Position numbers and translations under genes: made by a program
Part shown: piece after piece, positions 11,979 to 52,842 of the stretch
Layout: every line of letters starts with the position of its first letter
Numbering within the stretch: position 1 is the first letter of the stretch
Assembly (NCBI RefSeq): GCF_025137375.1
Contig: NZ_CP073720.1
Span: 6,658,501 to 6,722,500, forward strand
Reading direction: 5' to 3'
Origin: Dactylosporangium fulvum
GTDB lineage: Bacteria; Actinomycetota; Actinomycetes; Mycobacteriales; Micromonosporaceae
Length of the DNA: 64,000 nucleotides
The notes under the pieces: model-generated
What the model saw: only the letters and a program-made list of their open reading frames with translations
Told to the model about the DNA's origin: nothing
Database searches by the model: none

Positions 11979-12137
11979 GAGCCTGTTGCGTAATTCGCTG
12001 GGACAGCGTTGGCGGCCCAACTACGCGCCGATCTTGGAGTTGTGGCGCCATGAACCTCCGAATTTGTCCGGATTTGTCAAGCACCACAACTCCAAGATCG
12101 GCGCGGTTGTCGGGGTTGACGCGCGAGGGACCGAATT
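11979..12137 (+). mobile_element. MITE-like element, copy A (right end truncated, inverted orientation)
   Basis: The left terminal repeat GCCTGTTGCGTAATTCGC follows CCTGG at 11974-11978. The inner palindrome has two perfect 22-bp arms at 12024-12045 and 12084-12105. The sequence then matches the other copies up to about 12137 and stops before the second terminal repeat. Relative to the copies at 32.5 and 52.7 kb the body is reversed. The left flank (GATCAAGGGGAACTTTG) belongs to the same target-hairpin family as the copy at 32.4 kb. Any small protein predicted here (MNLRICPDLSS...) is an artefact that recurs in every copy. Confidence 0.85.
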
Positions 12138-32204: not shown

Positions 32205-32410
32205 GTGGGGACCAAGGGGTCGCGGAGGCTTGGTGTTGCTGGAGCAGCACGGAGCCTCCGCGATCATGAGCGATTGGGGGTTGCTGTCGTGGGTTCCGGC
32301 CGGCTTGTGGCCGTGATCGCGGCAAGTTCGCGATCACGAGTGCGGCGGTTGGGCCTGGCCGGGTGGTGCGGCCGAGGTTCGTAGATCAAGGGAAACTTCG
32401 GGCTGCCTGG
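32205..32410. repeat. Intergenic cassette with hairpins (paralogue of 51.99-52.2 kb)
   Basis: From about 32205 the sequence parallels 51995-52198: a GCGGAGGCTTGGTGTTGCTG...GCCTCCGCGATCATG hairpin, then GTGATCGCG (32313-32321) pairing with CGCGATCAC (32329-32337), then GTTGGGCCTGGCCGGGT. Homology continues into the target hairpin of the mobile element (from 32384). It occupies part of the 834-nt gap between the NTF2-like and Hsp70 genes. Confidence 0.75.
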
Positions 32411-32582
32411 GAGCCTGTTGTGCAATTCGGATCCCTCGCGCGTCAACCCCGACAACCGCGCCGATCTTGGAGTTGTGGCCCTTGACAAACCCGGACAAAT
32501 TCGGAGGTTCATGGCGCCACAACTCCAAGATCGGCGCGTAGTTGGGCCGCCAACACTGTCCCAGCGAATTACGCAACAGGCT
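32411..32582 (+). mobile_element. MITE-like element, copy B (complete)
   Basis: 172 bp bounded by inverted terminal repeats: AGCCTGTTGTGCAATTCGG on the left, AGCCTGTTGCGTAATTCGC (complement) on the right. It is flanked by CCTGG (32406-32410) and CCAGG (32583-32587). The inner palindrome arms are 32457-32478 and 32517-32538, 22 bp perfect. It interrupts a hairpin whose outer halves are 32384-32410 and 32583-32610; the uninterrupted version is at 52172-52221. It has no coding capacity for a transposase. Confidence 0.88.
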
Positions 32583-32693
32583 CCAGGACAGCCAGATGTT
32601 TCCGATGATCAAGCAACCCGGGTCAAGCCAATCGCGGAGCACGGCCACCCCGCACCGTGGGGCCACGGACGCCGTAGCCCGACTCTGCGGCCC

Positions 32694-32857: not shown

Positions 32858-34813
32858 ATGGACGCGGTGGAATTGGGCGTCGACCTGGGGACTTCCAGCA
32901 CGGTCGCGTTTCTGCGCCGCGACGACGGCACGGCCGAGCCGGTCCTCTTCGACGGCGCGCCGCTGCTGCCGTCCGCCGTCTACGCCGACCCCGGCGGTGA
33001 GCTGCTCGTCGGGCGAGACGCGCTGCACGCCGCGCGCGCCCGGCCGGAGCGCTTCGAGGGTAACCCGAAGCGGCGCATCGACGACGGCACCGTCTTCCTC
33101 GGCGCCGAGGTGGCCGTGGAGTCGCTGCTCGGCGCGCTGCTGCGACGGGTCGCGGCCGAGGCGCGGCGCATCGGCAGCGCGGCGATCACCAGCAGCACCG
33201 TCACCCATCCGGCCGCCTGGGGCTCCGCCCGGCGGGCCACCCTGCAACGGGCCGCGGCCGGCGCCGGACTCGGCGCCGTGCGACTGGTCCCCGAGCCGGT
33301 CGCCGCCGCCGCGTTCCACCTGCGCCGCCACGGCGCCGAGCCGGCCGACCTGCTCGTGTACGACCTGGGCGCCGGCACCTTCGACGTCGCCGTCGTCCGG
33401 CACTCCCCCGGCTCGGCGACGGCACGGATGGAGGTGCTGTGCAGCGCCGGGCTGGACGACACCGGCGGCCAGGACGTCGACGCCGCGATCGTCGGCCTGC
33501 TGCGCAGCCGGTCCGGCACGCCCGAGCTGTGGGCACGGCTCGACAACCCCGCCACCGTCGCCGACCGGGCCGCCCGGCGGCAGCTGTGGGAGGACGTCCG
33601 CAACGCGAAGGAGATGCTCTCCCGGACGAGCTCGGCCACCCTGTACCTGCCGCTGCTCGACACCGACCAGATCCTGACCCGCGACGAGCTTGAGCAGCTC
33701 GCTGCGCCGCTGATCCAGCGGACCGTCAACGCGATCGGCGCCACGCTGGCAGCCTGCCCGGTGCCGCTGCGCCCGCTCGGCGCCGTCATCCTGGTCGGCG
33801 GGGCGACCCGGATGCCGCTGGTCGCGACGATGCTGCACCGCGCGCTGAACATCCCGCCGACGATCATCGACCAGCCGGAGCTGGTCGTGGCCGCGGGCAG
33901 CCTCGACCCGATGGTGACCGGCCGGCCGGGTCCCGCGGGGCCACCCGCCGAGTGGACAGGCCCGGTGCCGCTCTCGGGCGGCGAGCGTTCGGGCGAGCTG
34001 TATCCCGCACCGATGCCGGCGCCGGCCTCACCGCCGGGGATGTGGCACCCGGTGGCGCCGCCCGCGGTTCCTCAGCCCGCGCCGCACGGTCCGTGGCAGC
34101 CGGCGCCTCCCCAGCCCGTCCCGGCCCAGCCCGTCCCGGCCCAGCCTGTCCCGGCCGGTGCCTGGCAGCCGGCGGCGCCCCCGCCGGCCGGTCCGTGGCA
34201 GCCGGTCCAGCCGACGGCGCCGCATCGGCCGCCGCCGGTCGCGGCGTCACGGCAGACCGGGGTCGCCCTCACCATCGTCGAGCTGCTCGAGCTCACCACC
34301 CCGCAGCACGAGGGCGTGACCCTGCGCGGCCAGCTCCACGGCGGCTACGGTGTGGTCGAGCACGTCTTCCCGACCGACGAGGAAGGCCGCCTGCTCGTCT
34401 TCCCCGACACGATGGCGCTGGCCCGATACGCGGCCCGCGACGCCTCCGATCCGCTCATCGCGACACCGCCGCGGCAGGTCCGCGCCGTCGGCTCCGACGA
34501 CCAGCGGTACAACCTCGATCTGGTCGTCGAGCACCTGAGCGGCCCGCCGGACCGGTGGCTGCCCAGCTTCGTCTGCCGCTGCCGGGACCTGTGCGCACAA
34601 CTCGCCGTGTTCCTCGGCCTGGCCGGCGCGGACGACCTGATCGGCGAGCACTCCACGATCGACCGGGTCGACGCCATCCTGCGCAAGCATCTCGCGGACG
34701 TCACCAGCCGCGGCGCCCGCCGCCGGCTGGCCCAGATCGACCAGGTCCGGCTGGTGGAGGACTGGACCGGCCTGGTGGCCCTGATCGACGCCGCGACTGT
34801 CCGGCCGGGCTGA
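32858..34813 (+). CDS. Hsp70-family ATPase fused to a Pro-rich linker and unknown C-terminal domain
   Basis: 651 aa from ATG 32858 (GTG 32867 is an alternative). Residues 1-350 are an actin/Hsp70 ATPase: phosphate-1 LGVDLGTSSTVAFL, phosphate-2 LVYDLGAGTFDVAVV, adenosine motif AVILVGGATRMPLV. The Hsp70 substrate-binding domain is absent. Instead residues ~355-465 are low-complexity Pro/Ala/Gln (repeats of QPVPAQPVPA), and the last ~180 residues form a compact domain (LTIVELLELTTPQHEGVTLR, EHVFPTDEEGRLLVFPDTMA, SFVCRCRDLCAQLAVFLGLA). Actinobacterial proteins of this type are thought to be regulatory rather than folding chaperones. TTGACA at 32831-32836 may be its -35. Confidence 0.85.
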   Translation: MDAVELGVDLGTSSTVAFLRRDDGTAEPVLFDGAPLLPSAVYADPGGELLVGRDALHAARARPERFEGNPKRRIDDGTVFLGAEVAVESLLGALLRRVAAEARRIGSAAITSSTVTHPAAWGSARRATLQRAAAGAGLGAVRLVPEPVAAAAFHLRRHGAEPADLLVYDLGAGTFDVAVVRHSPGSATARMEVLCSAGLDDTGGQDVDAAIVGLLRSRSGTPELWARLDNPATVADRAARRQLWEDVRNAKEMLSRTSSATLYLPLLDTDQILTRDELEQLAAPLIQRTVNAIGATLAACPVPLRPLGAVILVGGATRMPLVATMLHRALNIPPTIIDQPELVVAAGSLDPMVTGRPGPAGPPAEWTGPVPLSGGERSGELYPAPMPAPASPPGMWHPVAPPAVPQPAPHGPWQPAPPQPVPAQPVPAQPVPAGAWQPAAPPPAGPWQPVQPTAPHRPPPVAASRQTGVALTIVELLELTTPQHEGVTLRGQLHGGYGVVEHVFPTDEEGRLLVFPDTMALARYAARDASDPLIATPPRQVRAVGSDDQRYNLDLVVEHLSGPPDRWLPSFVCRCRDLCAQLAVFLGLAGADDLIGEHSTIDRVDAILRKHLADVTSRGARRRLAQIDQVRLVEDWTGLVALIDAATVRPG

Positions 34814-38437: not shown

Positions 38438-41400
38438 TCAGCTGTAGACCTCGAACTCGAACAGTGAGTAGCCCCATGCGGTGGCACGGGCCGTGCCGTT
38501 GATCCGGACATACCGGCCCGTGGCGTTCAGGGCGGTGTTGTCGTCCACCCCGCCGTCACCACCGGTCACCGTCCGCACCGTCGTCCACGTCGTACCGTTC
38601 GCCGACGTCTGGATCTGATACCCGGACCCGTACGCCGCCTCCCAGGTCAGCTTCACCCGGTTGATCGCGTACGACTGACCCAGGTCGACCTGAATCCACT
38701 GCGGATCGGAGAACGCACTCGCCCACCGGGTCGTCAGCGACCCGTCCACCGCGGCCAACGCCGGATACGCAGCGGACTCGGTGCTCGACGCCGTCACCGG
38801 ACGGTTCAACGCCAGATTCCCCGACACCGGCGGCGGGGTGCTGCCGGAGGTGAACGTGAAGTCGTCGATGTCGAACAGCGAACCGGTGGCACCGCCGGTG
38901 AACACCAGGTACAGCTGGTGCGTGCCGGACGGCGGGTTCACCGTGCCGGTGACGTCGGCCCACGTCTCCCAGCCGCCGGTCGGGTTGACCTGTACCGTCG
39001 CCACGGCCGGACCGGTCGGCGAGTCGGCGCGCACCGTGATCGTCCCGCCGATGCCGGCGGAGGCGACCCGCGCGGAGAAGCCGGTGACGCCGGCCAGGTT
39101 GTACGGCGTGAACGAGATCCAGTCGCCGTTCTCGATGTAGCCGACGGCGTTGCCGCCGTGGGCGCTCGGCTTGGCGGCGAGCTGGACGCCGTTCATCGTC
39201 CCGTAGTGCTCGGCCTGCCGGGTCCGCGGTTGCAGCACGTGCTGGTCCTGGACCGCGGTCCCGCTGACCGGCGTGTACTGCGCGTTGATCACCCCGAAGA
39301 TGTTCGCGGACGCGTCGTGCTCACCGTCCACGGTGGTCTGGATCGTCCCGCTGCAGCCGTTCTTGCTGGTGATCGGGTGACCGTGGCTGTCGTGGCCGAG
39401 GATGTAGCTGACCGTCACCCGGTTGCAGTCGACGGTCCCCCCGTTCGGATCGGTGACCTGCACCTGGAACGGCACCAGGTCGCCGAACTGGAACACCGAT
39501 CCGTCGGCCGGGGTGATGAGCTGGACCGTTGGCCGGCCGACCCCGATGACGGTACTGGCCGTTGAGATCCTGCCGCCACTGTCCCGCACCGTCAGCGTCG
39601 CGGTGTACTCGCCGTTCGCGGTGTACGTGAACGTCGGGTTGGCCGCCGTGGAGTCGGTGGTGCCGTCGGTGGTGAAGTCCCAGGCGTACGTGATCGGGTC
39701 GCCGTCCGGGTCGTTGCTGCCGGCCGAGCTGAACTGCACGGTCAGCGGCGCCGCGCCGGTCAGCGGGGTGGCGCCGATCTGGGCGATCGGTGCCCGGTTG
39801 CCGCCGTTGTTGTACTCGATGCGGTAGAGGGCCGAGTTGGCGTCACCGCCGAACCAGGTGGTGCCGTAGTCGAGCACGTACAGGGCGCCGTCCGGCCCGA
39901 ACTCCAGGTCCATGATCTGGGTTCCGGACCACGGGAACGGCTCGATCGCGCCGGCCGCGCCGGTACCCGTCAGGGTGACCGTCTTGATCCAGCGACTGGT
40001 GAACTCGCCGAGGAAGACCTTCCCGTTGTAGGAGGACGGGAACTTCACATCGGAAACCAGCGCCGGGTTGAAGTTGTAGACCGGACCCCCCATCGGCCCG
40101 CCCCCGCCCAACTCGGGACGCGAGGGCCCCGCGCCACCGTACGGCAGCCAGGCGACCTGGGACGGCGGGAGGGTGGTGATACCCGTGTTGTTCGGCGAGT
40201 TGTTCGTCGGCCCACCGGCACAGTTGAACGGTCCGGCCGACGGCCCGTTGGGGAACGTGAACTCCTGGTAGGGAGTGTTGTAGTTGGAGCAGTACGGCCA
40301 GCCGAAGAAGCCCGGCTGGGTGATCCGCTCGAACGAGACCGTGCCCGCGGGACCGCGCTGCGGGTCGGCGGTGCCGGCGTCGGGGCCGTAGTCACCGAGG
40401 TAGACGACCCCGGTGGCCTTGTCCACGCTCATCCGGAACGGGTTGCGGAAGCCCATGGCGTAGATCTCGGGCCTGGTCTTCGCCGTGCCCGGGGCGAACA
40501 TGTTGCCGGCCGGGATGGTGTAGCCACCCGTCGCCCCCGGCTTGATCCGCAGCACCTTGCCGCGCAGGTCGTTGCTGTTGGCCGAGGTGCGCTGCGCGTC
40601 GAACGCCGGGTTGCGGTCGGGCCGCTCGTCGATCGGCGCGGAACCGGCCGAGTCGAACGGGTTGGTGTCGTCACCGGTGGACAGGTAGAGGTTGCCGGCC
40701 GCGTCGAAGTCGATGTCACCACCGACGTGGCAGCACAGGCCACGGCTGGTCGGCACGTCGAGGATCGTCACCTGCGAGGCCGGGTCGATCGTGTAGTCGT
40801 CCCGCACGGTGAACCGGGCCAGCTTGTTGGAGCCGTTGAACGGGGCGAACTGCGCCGCCGTGCCGTTGGCCGGGGCGTCGCCGCCCGGCGTGCTGAGCGG
40901 GGGCGCGTAGTAGACGTACACCCACCGGTTCGTGGCGAAGTTCGGGTCGGCCTTGATGCTCTGCAGACCCTCCTCGTCGTGGGTGTAGACCTGCAGCGTC
41001 AGGGCGACCTTCGTGTTGCCGTTGACGTCGGTGTACCGGATGGTGCCGTCGCGGGAGGTGTGCAGCACGCCGCGGTTCGGCAGGACGGCCAGCCCCATCG
41101 GCTCACCGACCTCCGCGACGCCCTTCGCGAGGGTCACCTGCGTGAACGTGCCACCGGCCGGCGGGTTGGACCCGACCGAGCAGTTGCCGGTGCCCTGGGC
41201 CGCGTACCGGATGCCGCCGAGCAGGTGGGTGCGGAAGTTGGCCTCGCTGTAGCTCTCGATGGTGTGTCCGAGGCCCGAGTACCACGAGCGTCCGCCGTCG
41301 TAGGCGCGGCACCAGGAGATCGGGTGGTCGGCGCCCATGCTGCCGCCGGTGTAGGTCGACTCGTTGACGTTGGCCAGCACGTGCACCGAAGAGCGCGGGT

Positions 41401-41920
41401 TGGTACGGAAGCTGTACCACTCGTCGGTCCGGTTCCAGTTCGCCGGCAGGCCGGCCGTGGACGGGTGGACCGTGTCCTCGATGCGGACCGTGGCCGGCTG
41501 GATCGCCGGGTGGTTGGAGAAGTACGCGCCAACGAGGCTGCCGTACCAGGCCCAGTCGTACTCGGTGTCGGAGGCGGCGTGGATGCCGACGTATCCGCCA
41601 CCGGCCCGAATGTAGCGCTCGAACGCGGCCTGCTGGGTCGTGTCGAGCACGTCACCGGTGGTGGACAGCCAGATCACCGCTTTGAACCTCGCCAGGTTGG
41701 CGTCAGTGAACTGGCCGGCGTCCTCGGTCGCCTCGACCGTGAAGTTGTTCTGCGTGCCGAGCTGCTGGATCGCGGCGATGCCCGCCGGGATCGAGTCGTG
41801 CCGGAACCCCGCGGTCTTGCTGAAGATCAGCACCGAGAAGTCGGCGGCGAAAGCCGGGGCGATGTTGACGCCGACCCCGGCCAGCACGATGGCGACGCAG
41901 AGCAGCACTCTGCGAAACAT
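38438..41920 (-). CDS. Secreted multidomain ThuA / sugar dehydrogenase / PKD / CBM6 / CBM32 protein
   Basis: 1160 aa with a signal peptide (RRVLLCVAIVLAGVGVNIAP, cleavage after AFA). In order: ThuA-like class I glutamine-amidotransferase fold ~28-245 (VLIFSKTAGFRHDSIPAGI, GYVGIHAASDTEYDW); glucose/sorbosone-dehydrogenase beta-propeller ~260-700 (MGLAVLPNRGVLHTSRDG, CCHVGGDIDFDAAGNLYLST, YAMGFRNPFRMSVD); PKD ~710-800 (APLTVQFSSAGSNDPDGDPI); a linker; CBM6-like ~905-1035 (YIENGDWISFTPYNLAGVTG); and an F5/8 type C/CBM32 module ~1045-1160 (NRPVTASSTESAAYPALAAV, FEFEVYS). It probably binds and oxidises sugars or polysaccharide ends outside the cell. A palindrome 300 nt upstream suggests LacI-type sugar control. 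Confidence 0.92.
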   Translation of the reverse strand: MFRRVLLCVAIVLAGVGVNIAPAFAADFSVLIFSKTAGFRHDSIPAGIAAIQQLGTQNNFTVEATEDAGQFTDANLARFKAVIWLSTTGDVLDTTQQAAFERYIRAGGGYVGIHAASDTEYDWAWYGSLVGAYFSNHPAIQPATVRIEDTVHPSTAGLPANWNRTDEWYSFRTNPRSSVHVLANVNESTYTGGSMGADHPISWCRAYDGGRSWYSGLGHTIESYSEANFRTHLLGGIRYAAQGTGNCSVGSNPPAGGTFTQVTLAKGVAEVGEPMGLAVLPNRGVLHTSRDGTIRYTDVNGNTKVALTLQVYTHDEEGLQSIKADPNFATNRWVYVYYAPPLSTPGGDAPANGTAAQFAPFNGSNKLARFTVRDDYTIDPASQVTILDVPTSRGLCCHVGGDIDFDAAGNLYLSTGDDTNPFDSAGSAPIDERPDRNPAFDAQRTSANSNDLRGKVLRIKPGATGGYTIPAGNMFAPGTAKTRPEIYAMGFRNPFRMSVDKATGVVYLGDYGPDAGTADPQRGPAGTVSFERITQPGFFGWPYCSNYNTPYQEFTFPNGPSAGPFNCAGGPTNNSPNNTGITTLPPSQVAWLPYGGAGPSRPELGGGGPMGGPVYNFNPALVSDVKFPSSYNGKVFLGEFTSRWIKTVTLTGTGAAGAIEPFPWSGTQIMDLEFGPDGALYVLDYGTTWFGGDANSALYRIEYNNGGNRAPIAQIGATPLTGAAPLTVQFSSAGSNDPDGDPITYAWDFTTDGTTDSTAANPTFTYTANGEYTATLTVRDSGGRISTASTVIGVGRPTVQLITPADGSVFQFGDLVPFQVQVTDPNGGTVDCNRVTVSYILGHDSHGHPITSKNGCSGTIQTTVDGEHDASANIFGVINAQYTPVSGTAVQDQHVLQPRTRQAEHYGTMNGVQLAAKPSAHGGNAVGYIENGDWISFTPYNLAGVTGFSARVASAGIGGTITVRADSPTGPAVATVQVNPTGGWETWADVTGTVNPPSGTHQLYLVFTGGATGSLFDIDDFTFTSGSTPPPVSGNLALNRPVTASSTESAAYPALAAVDGSLTTRWASAFSDPQWIQVDLGQSYAINRVKLTWEAAYGSGYQIQTSANGTTWTTVRTVTGGDGGVDDNTALNATGRYVRINGTARATAWGYSLFEFEVYS

Positions 41921-51994: not shown

Positions 51995-52232
51995 GGACCA
52001 AGGAGTCGCGTTTCATGACCGCGGAGGTTTGGTGTTGCTGGGGCAGCACGGAGCCTCCGATTTGGGGTTGTCGTGGTGGGTTCCAGCCGGTTTGTGGCCG
52101 TGATCGCGATGCGTTCGCGATCACGGGTGCGGTGGTTGGGCCTGGCCGGGGTGGTGCGGCTGCGGTTCGTAGATCAAGGGAAACTTCGGGCTGCCTGGAC
52201 AGCCAGATGTTTCCGACGATCAAGCAACCCGG
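51995..52232. repeat. Intergenic cassette with the empty target hairpin
   Basis: Diverged copy of the cassette at 32.2 kb (shared TTTGTGGCCGTGATCGCG, TTCGCGATCACGGGTGCGG, GTTGGGCCTGGCCGGG). It ends in a hairpin at 52172-52221 with CCTGG (52194-52198) in its centre. At 32.4 kb the mobile element sits exactly at this CCTGG; here it is absent. Homology continues past 52232 (AAGCAACCCGG, GCGCGGAGCACG, GGGGCCACGGACGCCG). Confidence 0.82.
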
Positions 52233-52380
52233 TCAGGGCAAGCGCGGAGCACGACCGGCCCCGCACCACGGGGCCACGGACGCCGCGACCCGCCTCTGCA
52301 GCCCGGCACTGCGGCCCGGCACCGCAGCGTGGCCCGGCACTGCGGCCCGGCACCGCAGCGTGGCCCGGCACTGCGGCGCG

Positions 52381-52523
52381 GCGCGGCGGCGCGGCGCGGC
52401 GGCGCGGCGCGGCGGCGCGGCGCGGCGGCGCGGCGCGGCGGCCCGGCGCGGCGGCGCGGCGCGGCGGCCCGGCGCGGCGGCGCGGCGCGGCGGCCCGGCG
52501 CGGCGGCCCGGCGCGGCGGCCCG
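52381..52523. repeat. 13-bp GC tandem repeat, 11 units
   Basis: Eleven head-to-tail copies of GCGCGGCGGCGCG or GCGCGGCGGCCCG. The variants alternate towards the right end, suggesting slippage after point mutation. It is pure G+C for over 140 bp. It is preceded by two ~34-bp GGCCCGGCACTGCGGCCC-type repeats (52300-52375) and is non-coding despite being open in several frames. Confidence 0.88.
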
Positions 52524-52644
52524 GCACCGCGCACGGCCCGGCACCGCGGCACGGCCCGCCGCGGCACGGCACTGCGGCCCGCCGCGGCACGGCACTGCTT
52601 GACACGATTCCTCGCATGATCACGGAGAGTTGGTGCACCCCTGG

Positions 52645-52815
52645 GGCCTGTTGCGCAATTCGGATCCCTCGCGCGTCAACCCCGACAACCGCGCCGATCT
52701 TGGAGTTGTGGTCCTTGACAAACCCGGACAAATTCGGAGGTTCATGGCGCCACAACTCCAAGATCGGCGCGTAGTTGGGCCGCCAACGCTGTCCCAGCGA
52801 ATTACGCAACAGGCT
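52645..52815 (+). mobile_element. MITE-like element, copy C (complete)
   Basis: 171 bp, same orientation as copy B and nearly identical in the body (inner arms 52690-52711 and 52750-52771). Terminal repeats GGCCTGTTGCGCAATTCGG and AGCCTGTTGCGTAATTCGC (complement). It is flanked by CCTGG (52640-52644) and CCAGG (52816-52820). It interrupts a different hairpin whose halves are 52618-52644 and 52816-52842; removing the element and one pentamer restores GTGCACCCC-T-GGGGTGCAC. Confidence 0.88.
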
Positions 52816-52842
52816 CCAGGGGTGCACGAACTCTCCGCGATC

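Follow-up and report, generated by a model that had tools for sequence, protein, structure and literature searches.

A non-coding MITE located at hairpin apices in the genome of Dactylosporangium fulvum

The window analyzed here, a stretch of 64,000 nucleotides of Dactylosporangium fulvum DNA, holds near 32.4 kb a hairpin that is interrupted at its apex and, at 52172-52221, a counterpart that is not. Did a mobile element enter the first hairpin or was it lost from the second, and what marks such a site? The first-pass annotation had reported both hairpins, and both lie where it placed them. The DNA between the interrupted arms (copy B) had been given as 32411-32582, ~172 bp. The element is there, but its bounds are better taken as 32412-32582, 171 bp. 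Its ends are indeed inverted repeats, of 18 bp rather than ~19 bp, and the inner palindrome is perfect as claimed, although its arms are 23 bp and not 22 bp long. The element was also said to lack coding capacity and hence to be non-autonomous, a description that we uphold, coding being judged from length alone and the partner transposase not having been found. Our interpretation, which we hold with considerable confidence, is that this is a non-coding 171-bp MITE, built of 18-bp terminal inverted repeats (TIRs) and an 82-bp core, that has inserted at hairpin apices, the manner of insertion being proposed from sequence. Copies of either orientation occupy the central 6 bp of quasi-palindromes, with ~6 bp duplicated, and such quasi-palindromes are also found empty.

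Table 1 Features of copy B, its empty counterpart and the other copies in the window.
Feature	Position in window	Strand	Remark
Copy B of the 171-bp element	32412..32582	+	97.7% to consensus
Left TIR, copy B	32412..32429	+	AGCCTGTTGTGCAATTCG; family consensus AGCCTGTTGCGYAATTCG
Right TIR, copy B	32565..32582	-	CGAATTACGCAACAGGCT; 16/18 vs left repeat
Left flanking 6-mer CCTGGG	32406..32411	.	Hairpin apex; target duplication, diverged
Right flanking 6-mer CCAGGA	32583..32588	.	Hairpin apex; target duplication, diverged
Interrupted target hairpin, left arm	32384..32405	+	
Interrupted target hairpin, right arm	32589..32610	-	
Inner perfect palindrome (23 bp), left arm	32457..32479	+	Start of ~82-bp core hairpin, ending 32538
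Inner perfect palindrome (23 bp), right arm	32516..32538	-	
Empty target hairpin	52172..52221	.	22-nt arms; 6-nt loop CCTGGA at 52194-52199
Third window copy	52645..52815	+	In ATGATC...GATCAT hairpin
6-mers beside third window copy	52639-52644, 52816-52821		CCCTGG and CCAGGG, respectively
Truncated window copy	11980..12137	-	Left TIR lost; aligns to consensus positions 13-171

The two loci align on both sides of the junction as had been stated, with BLAST identities of 84.8% over 191 bp and 76.3% over 245 bp. When the element and one 6-mer were removed by script beforehand, 304 of 379 alignment columns were identical between the copy B locus and the 52-kb cassette. The filled and empty forms had been said to differ by exactly the element plus one pentamer; the actual difference is 177 bp, which is equally 171 + 6 or 172 + 5. 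Folded as DNA, the empty hairpin gives exactly the 6-nt loop CCTGGA, and the filled site folded as RNA gives -133 kcal/mol (z = -12.2, with 0 of 200 shuffles as good).

A centre-of-element pattern found 73 copies in the 10.49-Mb genome, 38 on one strand and 35 on the other, and the reversed-pattern control found 0. The window holds three of these, one of them truncated. With a TIR called as 18 bp having up to 4 mismatches to the consensus, both ends are present in 58 copies, the left only in 10, the right only in 2 and neither in 3. Sharp ends, the lack of which in other genomic copies would have told against insertion, are thus shared by 58 of the 73. In an alignment of the first 53 full copies, the length is exactly 171 bp in 43, and copies diverge from the consensus by 2.4% on average. 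The element is short, occurs in many near-identical copies and has TIRs and a target duplication, as is characteristic of MITEs.

The length of the duplication was taken from the family. Direct identity of the flanking k-mers in the 58 full copies was 0.31, 0.53, 0.78, 0.45, and 0.23 for k = 4-8, and as the peak is at k = 6 we take the target duplication to be 6 bp; the duplicated CCWGG pentamer of the first-pass annotation was correct as to duplication but short by one base. The two 6-mers are identical in 20/58 copies (6.2% of random copy pairs) and match at five or more of six positions in 34/58 (22.6% of random copy pairs). Among the 38 non-identical pairs, five form perfect inverted repeats, not direct ones, which might reflect the rewriting of one hairpin arm from its partner. 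The 6-mers of copy B differ, and thus a clean duplication is shown by the family and not by this pair.

If the 52.2-kb hairpin were a lone deletion scar, insertion would lose its footing. It is not alone: 11 empty cassette apices were found in the ~1.05 Mb of the same genome that was examined, a set partly chosen around the element and hence not random. An evenly spaced 800 kb accounts for three of the 11. The cassette of copy B is filled, with both arms present, at five loci (L001, L002, L003, L014, and L019), all with the same insertion point and with the element in one orientation at three and in the other at two. Two orientations at one cassette position require at least two separate insertions there, and a cassette that is empty at 11 loci and filled in both orientations at five records insertions, not deletion scars. 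Under a strict arm definition this genome has 15 filled and 3 empty hairpins, and empty ones occur in two of six congeneric genomes (7 and 4), the filled form having been sought in this genome only.

It could be argued instead that the outer hairpin and the inner 171 bp move together as a single unit and that the short hairpins are deletion products. The outer arms and the inner element do form one continuous hairpin, one or both TIRs are missing in 15/73 copies, and long palindromes tend to lose their central part by deletion. We consider this highly improbable nonetheless, since the inner sequence is on average only 2.4% diverged while the outer arms differ strongly between copies, the 6-bp duplication is located at the inner junction, the element lies in both orientations within one cassette, and like empty hairpins are present in congeneric genomes where the element ends were not found.

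To locate the insertion point relative to the target palindrome, the empty site of each full copy was rebuilt by a script that joined the flanks, and the best palindrome axis was compared with the centre of the 6-mer. The offset was 0 in 41/58 copies, at most 1 nt in 48/58 and more than 1 nt in 10/58. The median arm score was 12 at insertions, 4 when flanks were exchanged among copies and 1 at randomly drawn positions of the genome. Scores above the 99.9th percentile of random sites were seen at 36/58 insertions and in 16.7% of swapped pairs, leaving 22/58 insertions that do not exceed it. Most target arms belong to a hairpin family of ~54 bp, ATGATC...GATCAT, the others including the longer cassette, and in 40/58 copies each flank has GATC within 40 nt. 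A count of base pairs spanning the insertion in RNA folds discriminated too weakly in DNA this rich in G+C, random sites averaging 11 pairs and insertion sites 21, and was superseded by the arm-alignment and motif-matched tests. An ungapped scan of 864 kb (the 800-kb sample plus the window) gave 9 element centres and, outside the element, 44 hairpins, of which 13 have GATC in both arms. Another hairpin family, TTGACCTTGGT...ACCAAGGTC with apex CCCTGR, is empty at both copies seen (L188:17155 and L205:16789).

The filled sites also have a symmetric motif in common, TNNNGNNN-CCNNGG-NNNCNNNA. Its consensus positions, T-3N-G-3N-CCNNGG-3N-C-3N-A, are matched at 8/8 in 22/58 filled sites and at seven or more in 34/58, the motif having been built from the filled sites themselves. 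It is quite possible, though in our estimate somewhat short of probable, that targeting is by sequence only, either by this symmetric motif of ~22 bp or by wider sequence of the hairpin families, and that hairpin folding is irrelevant. Transposases may read palindromic REPs much as regulators read palindromic sites, according to the accessible text of a study of REP insertion (PMC1525189). Against motif reading by itself stands the comparison at equal motif score, in which a hairpin was an arm score of 8 or more and empty sites came from the evenly spaced 800-kb genome sample. At a motif score of at least 7/8, hairpins make up 30/34 filled but 11/386 empty sites (odds ratio ~256, p = 2e-32), and at 8/8 they make up 20/22 filled but 3/15 empty sites (p = 2e-5). 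With the stricter arm score of 10, the figures at 7/8 or better are 27/34 and 9/386. Hairpin context splits filled from empty sites at matched motif, indicating that the motif alone is insufficient for the choice. By eye, the four filled sites that are not hairpins look like hairpins with an arm deleted or exchanged. Moreover, the target of L026 (8006770) is a well-formed hairpin that lacks GATC arms near the apex and scores only 3/8 for the motif. As the motif derives from filled sites and the hairpins belong to repeat families, recognition of a longer family sequence is possible. Many candidate sites are vacant: scaled up from the 800-kb sample, roughly 39 hairpins with an 8/8 motif are empty, compared with 20 filled.

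An element with TIRs and a 6-bp duplication is the expected product of a DDE enzyme rather than of a Y1 single-strand transposase. For the MITE at hairpin apices we picture a DDE-type transposase that would act in trans and cut the target with a 6-bp stagger, favoring the two-fold symmetric motif plus hairpin arms. The hairpins would serve as tolerated landing sites, and the inserted element, a hairpin itself, would extend the hairpin at the site. In this genome the source enzyme may be lost, dead or unrecognised. A bolder proposal, which we think rather unlikely, is that the enzyme reads the extruded hairpin, as a cruciform or single-strand loop, and cuts its 6-nt apical loop, in which case insertion would be aimed by shape and hairpins would come to nest within hairpins. 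If so, core hairpins of congeneric genomes would be older rounds of the same habit.

Those genomes were examined for both parts of the element. The ends were not present in number in 149 other genomes of the family at up to one mismatch; three of the 149 gave one end match each, with one mismatch. Sequences related to the ~82-bp core hairpin abound in three of the six congeneric genomes, which gave 42, 44, and 45 matches (40 candidates scored per genome); in these three the outer ends were not found. In 42 congeneric cores examined, five mostly paired positions follow beyond the core. At least six further perfectly paired, copy-specific bases lie outside the core in 9 of the 41 congeneric copies with full flanks (loci within L031-L052 and L224-L243), compared with 0.4% when flanks were swapped. 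This copy-specific pairing means that hairpins lie within hairpins there too.

Incomplete copies and odd junctions also occur in the family. Of the 15 incomplete copies, ten (L056, L058, L060, L062, L064, L068, L069, L073, L074, and L079) retain the left end and stop within the right arm, past the core, a pattern that suggests deletions beginning at the hairpin. Copies L005 and L021 have, by eye, arms of two different hairpins, and recombination between copies would explain these. Of three lone ends, those of L088 and L089 appear to be rearranged and truncated copies, respectively, and that of L090 has 3 mismatches and no partner end. In the rearranged copy (L088:6751-6867) an ATGATC...GATCAT hairpin replaces the core, and the nesting is reversed.

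The first-pass annotation had advised looking for a transposase gene flanked by the same termini. None was found in the sets searched, which covered the DDE_Tnp_1, rve, and IS1634 families. Allowing up to 3 mismatches, the genome has 189 end matches; 127 + 2 belong to known copies, which leaves 60, as against 50 in the control. No autonomous partner was seen among the end matches listed (the first 100 of the 189), and such an end pair is carried neither by the 8 DDE_Tnp_1 loci of the genome nor by its 12 rve loci. The TIR pattern gave 0 matches in viral contigs. The genome_contigs set gave 28 exact end matches, each single and regarded as chance, and plasmids queried with each arm gave 450 and 9 weak record matches, none above 80% of the query. 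As no transposase with these termini was found, the non-autonomous label stands with its partner missing. The nearest approach to such a pair, at L128 (inverted, 5 mismatches each), was considered as a partner but turned out to be a second MITE family. That family has related ends, GGCCTGTTTCGTAACTG, is ~160 bp long and has CTAG at both sides; its copies in the 800-kb sample are L201:9840-9999 and L205:19067-19226 (G000:C1 ~9009840 and 719067).

One transposase gene deserves separate discussion. The genome has a single IS1634-family gene (L249:2483-4468 = G000:C1:7406482-7408467), the ends of which are recognisable. The right end of this element is identical to the MITE TIR at 12 of 18 positions in exact register, and the element is flanked by 5-bp repeats, TTGCT. 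Duplications in the family are 5-6 bp according to the available portion of PMC2266710, a range that includes the 6 bp of the MITE. We nevertheless judge it unlikely that the mobilising enzyme is of the IS1634 family. The left end matches at only 10/18 positions by manual count, and 5 of 6 IS1634 relatives of the family whose ends were inspected carry GTTCC-CAG close to the end, a sequence to which the MITE shows a partial match. IS1634 duplications are AT-rich and the ends begin C-----YT, as described in the accessible sections of PMC2266710, whereas the duplications of the MITE are GC-rich and its ends read A-----TT, the first base being A and not C. The same sections describe the ends of the family as poorly conserved (PMC2266710). 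The likeness that is left is the size of the duplication and a weak in-register resemblance of one end.

The gene itself reads VVNRGF; the corresponding stretch is VADRGF or VCDTGF in five relatives at a greater distance, all of which keep D where this gene has N. The gene is syntenic in four of seven genus genomes (this one plus G003, G004, and G005), and its flanks align at 87-89% with the three congeners, which makes it an old resident. Segments, among them the one with the presumed catalytic E, are missing from the three syntenic orthologues; we take the changed D and this segment-borne E to be catalytic residues. Their frames are open despite the lost segments, with dN/dS of 0.43-0.70. 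The gene was initially a strong candidate for the active source and was set aside on the changed residue, the sole IS1634-family gene of the genome having N for D and no intact one having been found. A domesticated transposase acting as a conserved partner was also considered, as synteny is suggestive, but with the lost segments and dN/dS of 0.43-0.70 decay is at least as likely as domestication. Nor does the gene track the core hairpin cleanly, being present in G003, a genome that gave no match to the core. To judge from these residues and losses the gene is probably a relic and at best a weak lead to the family of the enzyme.

Several IS families have members that insert specifically into repeated extragenic palindromes (PMC1525189). 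The MITE resembles the REP-targeting elements IS1397, ISPsy8, ISPpu9, ISPpu10, ISRm22, and ISRm19 in fixed-point insertion within a repeated palindrome. These have a transposase gene, whereas at 171 bp the MITE is too short for one, and unlike them it is non-coding, is present in 73 copies and occupies the central 6 nt in hairpins with differing arms. With bacterial MITEs as characterized in the accessible text of PMC10969869, it shares short length, TIRs, target duplications and a strong fold. That text calls MITEs 'typically AT-rich', and the element is likewise poorer in G+C than its surroundings (59%, compared with 72% for the window). It departs from the AT-rich intergenic sites given there for MITEs (PMC10969869) in its GC-rich hairpin-apex 6-mers, and no parental IS was found. 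Like REPIN/RAYT systems (PMC3116915), it is a small hairpin element with many copies in one genome; unlike those systems, which have a Y1 transposase as partner, it has TIRs and a 6-bp duplication. No MITE at hairpin apices was described in the literature searched, a body from which subscription papers were mostly absent and which was available in part. Our verdict is an orphan MITE with hairpin-apex specificity, a variant of REP-targeting insertion. The family offers dozens of natural filled and empty sites for asking if DNA shape can aim a transposase, as well as a natural history of long chromosomal palindromes in which arms are exchanged, ends lost and flanks recombined. The enzyme, if found, could be used to direct insertions to intergenic hairpins of GC-rich bacteria.

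The surroundings of the window copies have other features. An Hsp70-like gene (Pfam PF00012) lies at 32858-34813 on the + strand; its likely ATG, chosen by eye, is at 32858, 276 bp past copy B, which places the element within the upstream region of that gene. No Rfam family matched within the window at gathering thresholds. A tandem repeat of G and C only, with GGCGCGGCGC-like units, occupies 52380-52500 and adjoins the empty cassette. On the - strand, 38438-41920 encodes a protein of 1160 aa with ThuA, GSDH, PKD, CBM6, and F5/8C domains.
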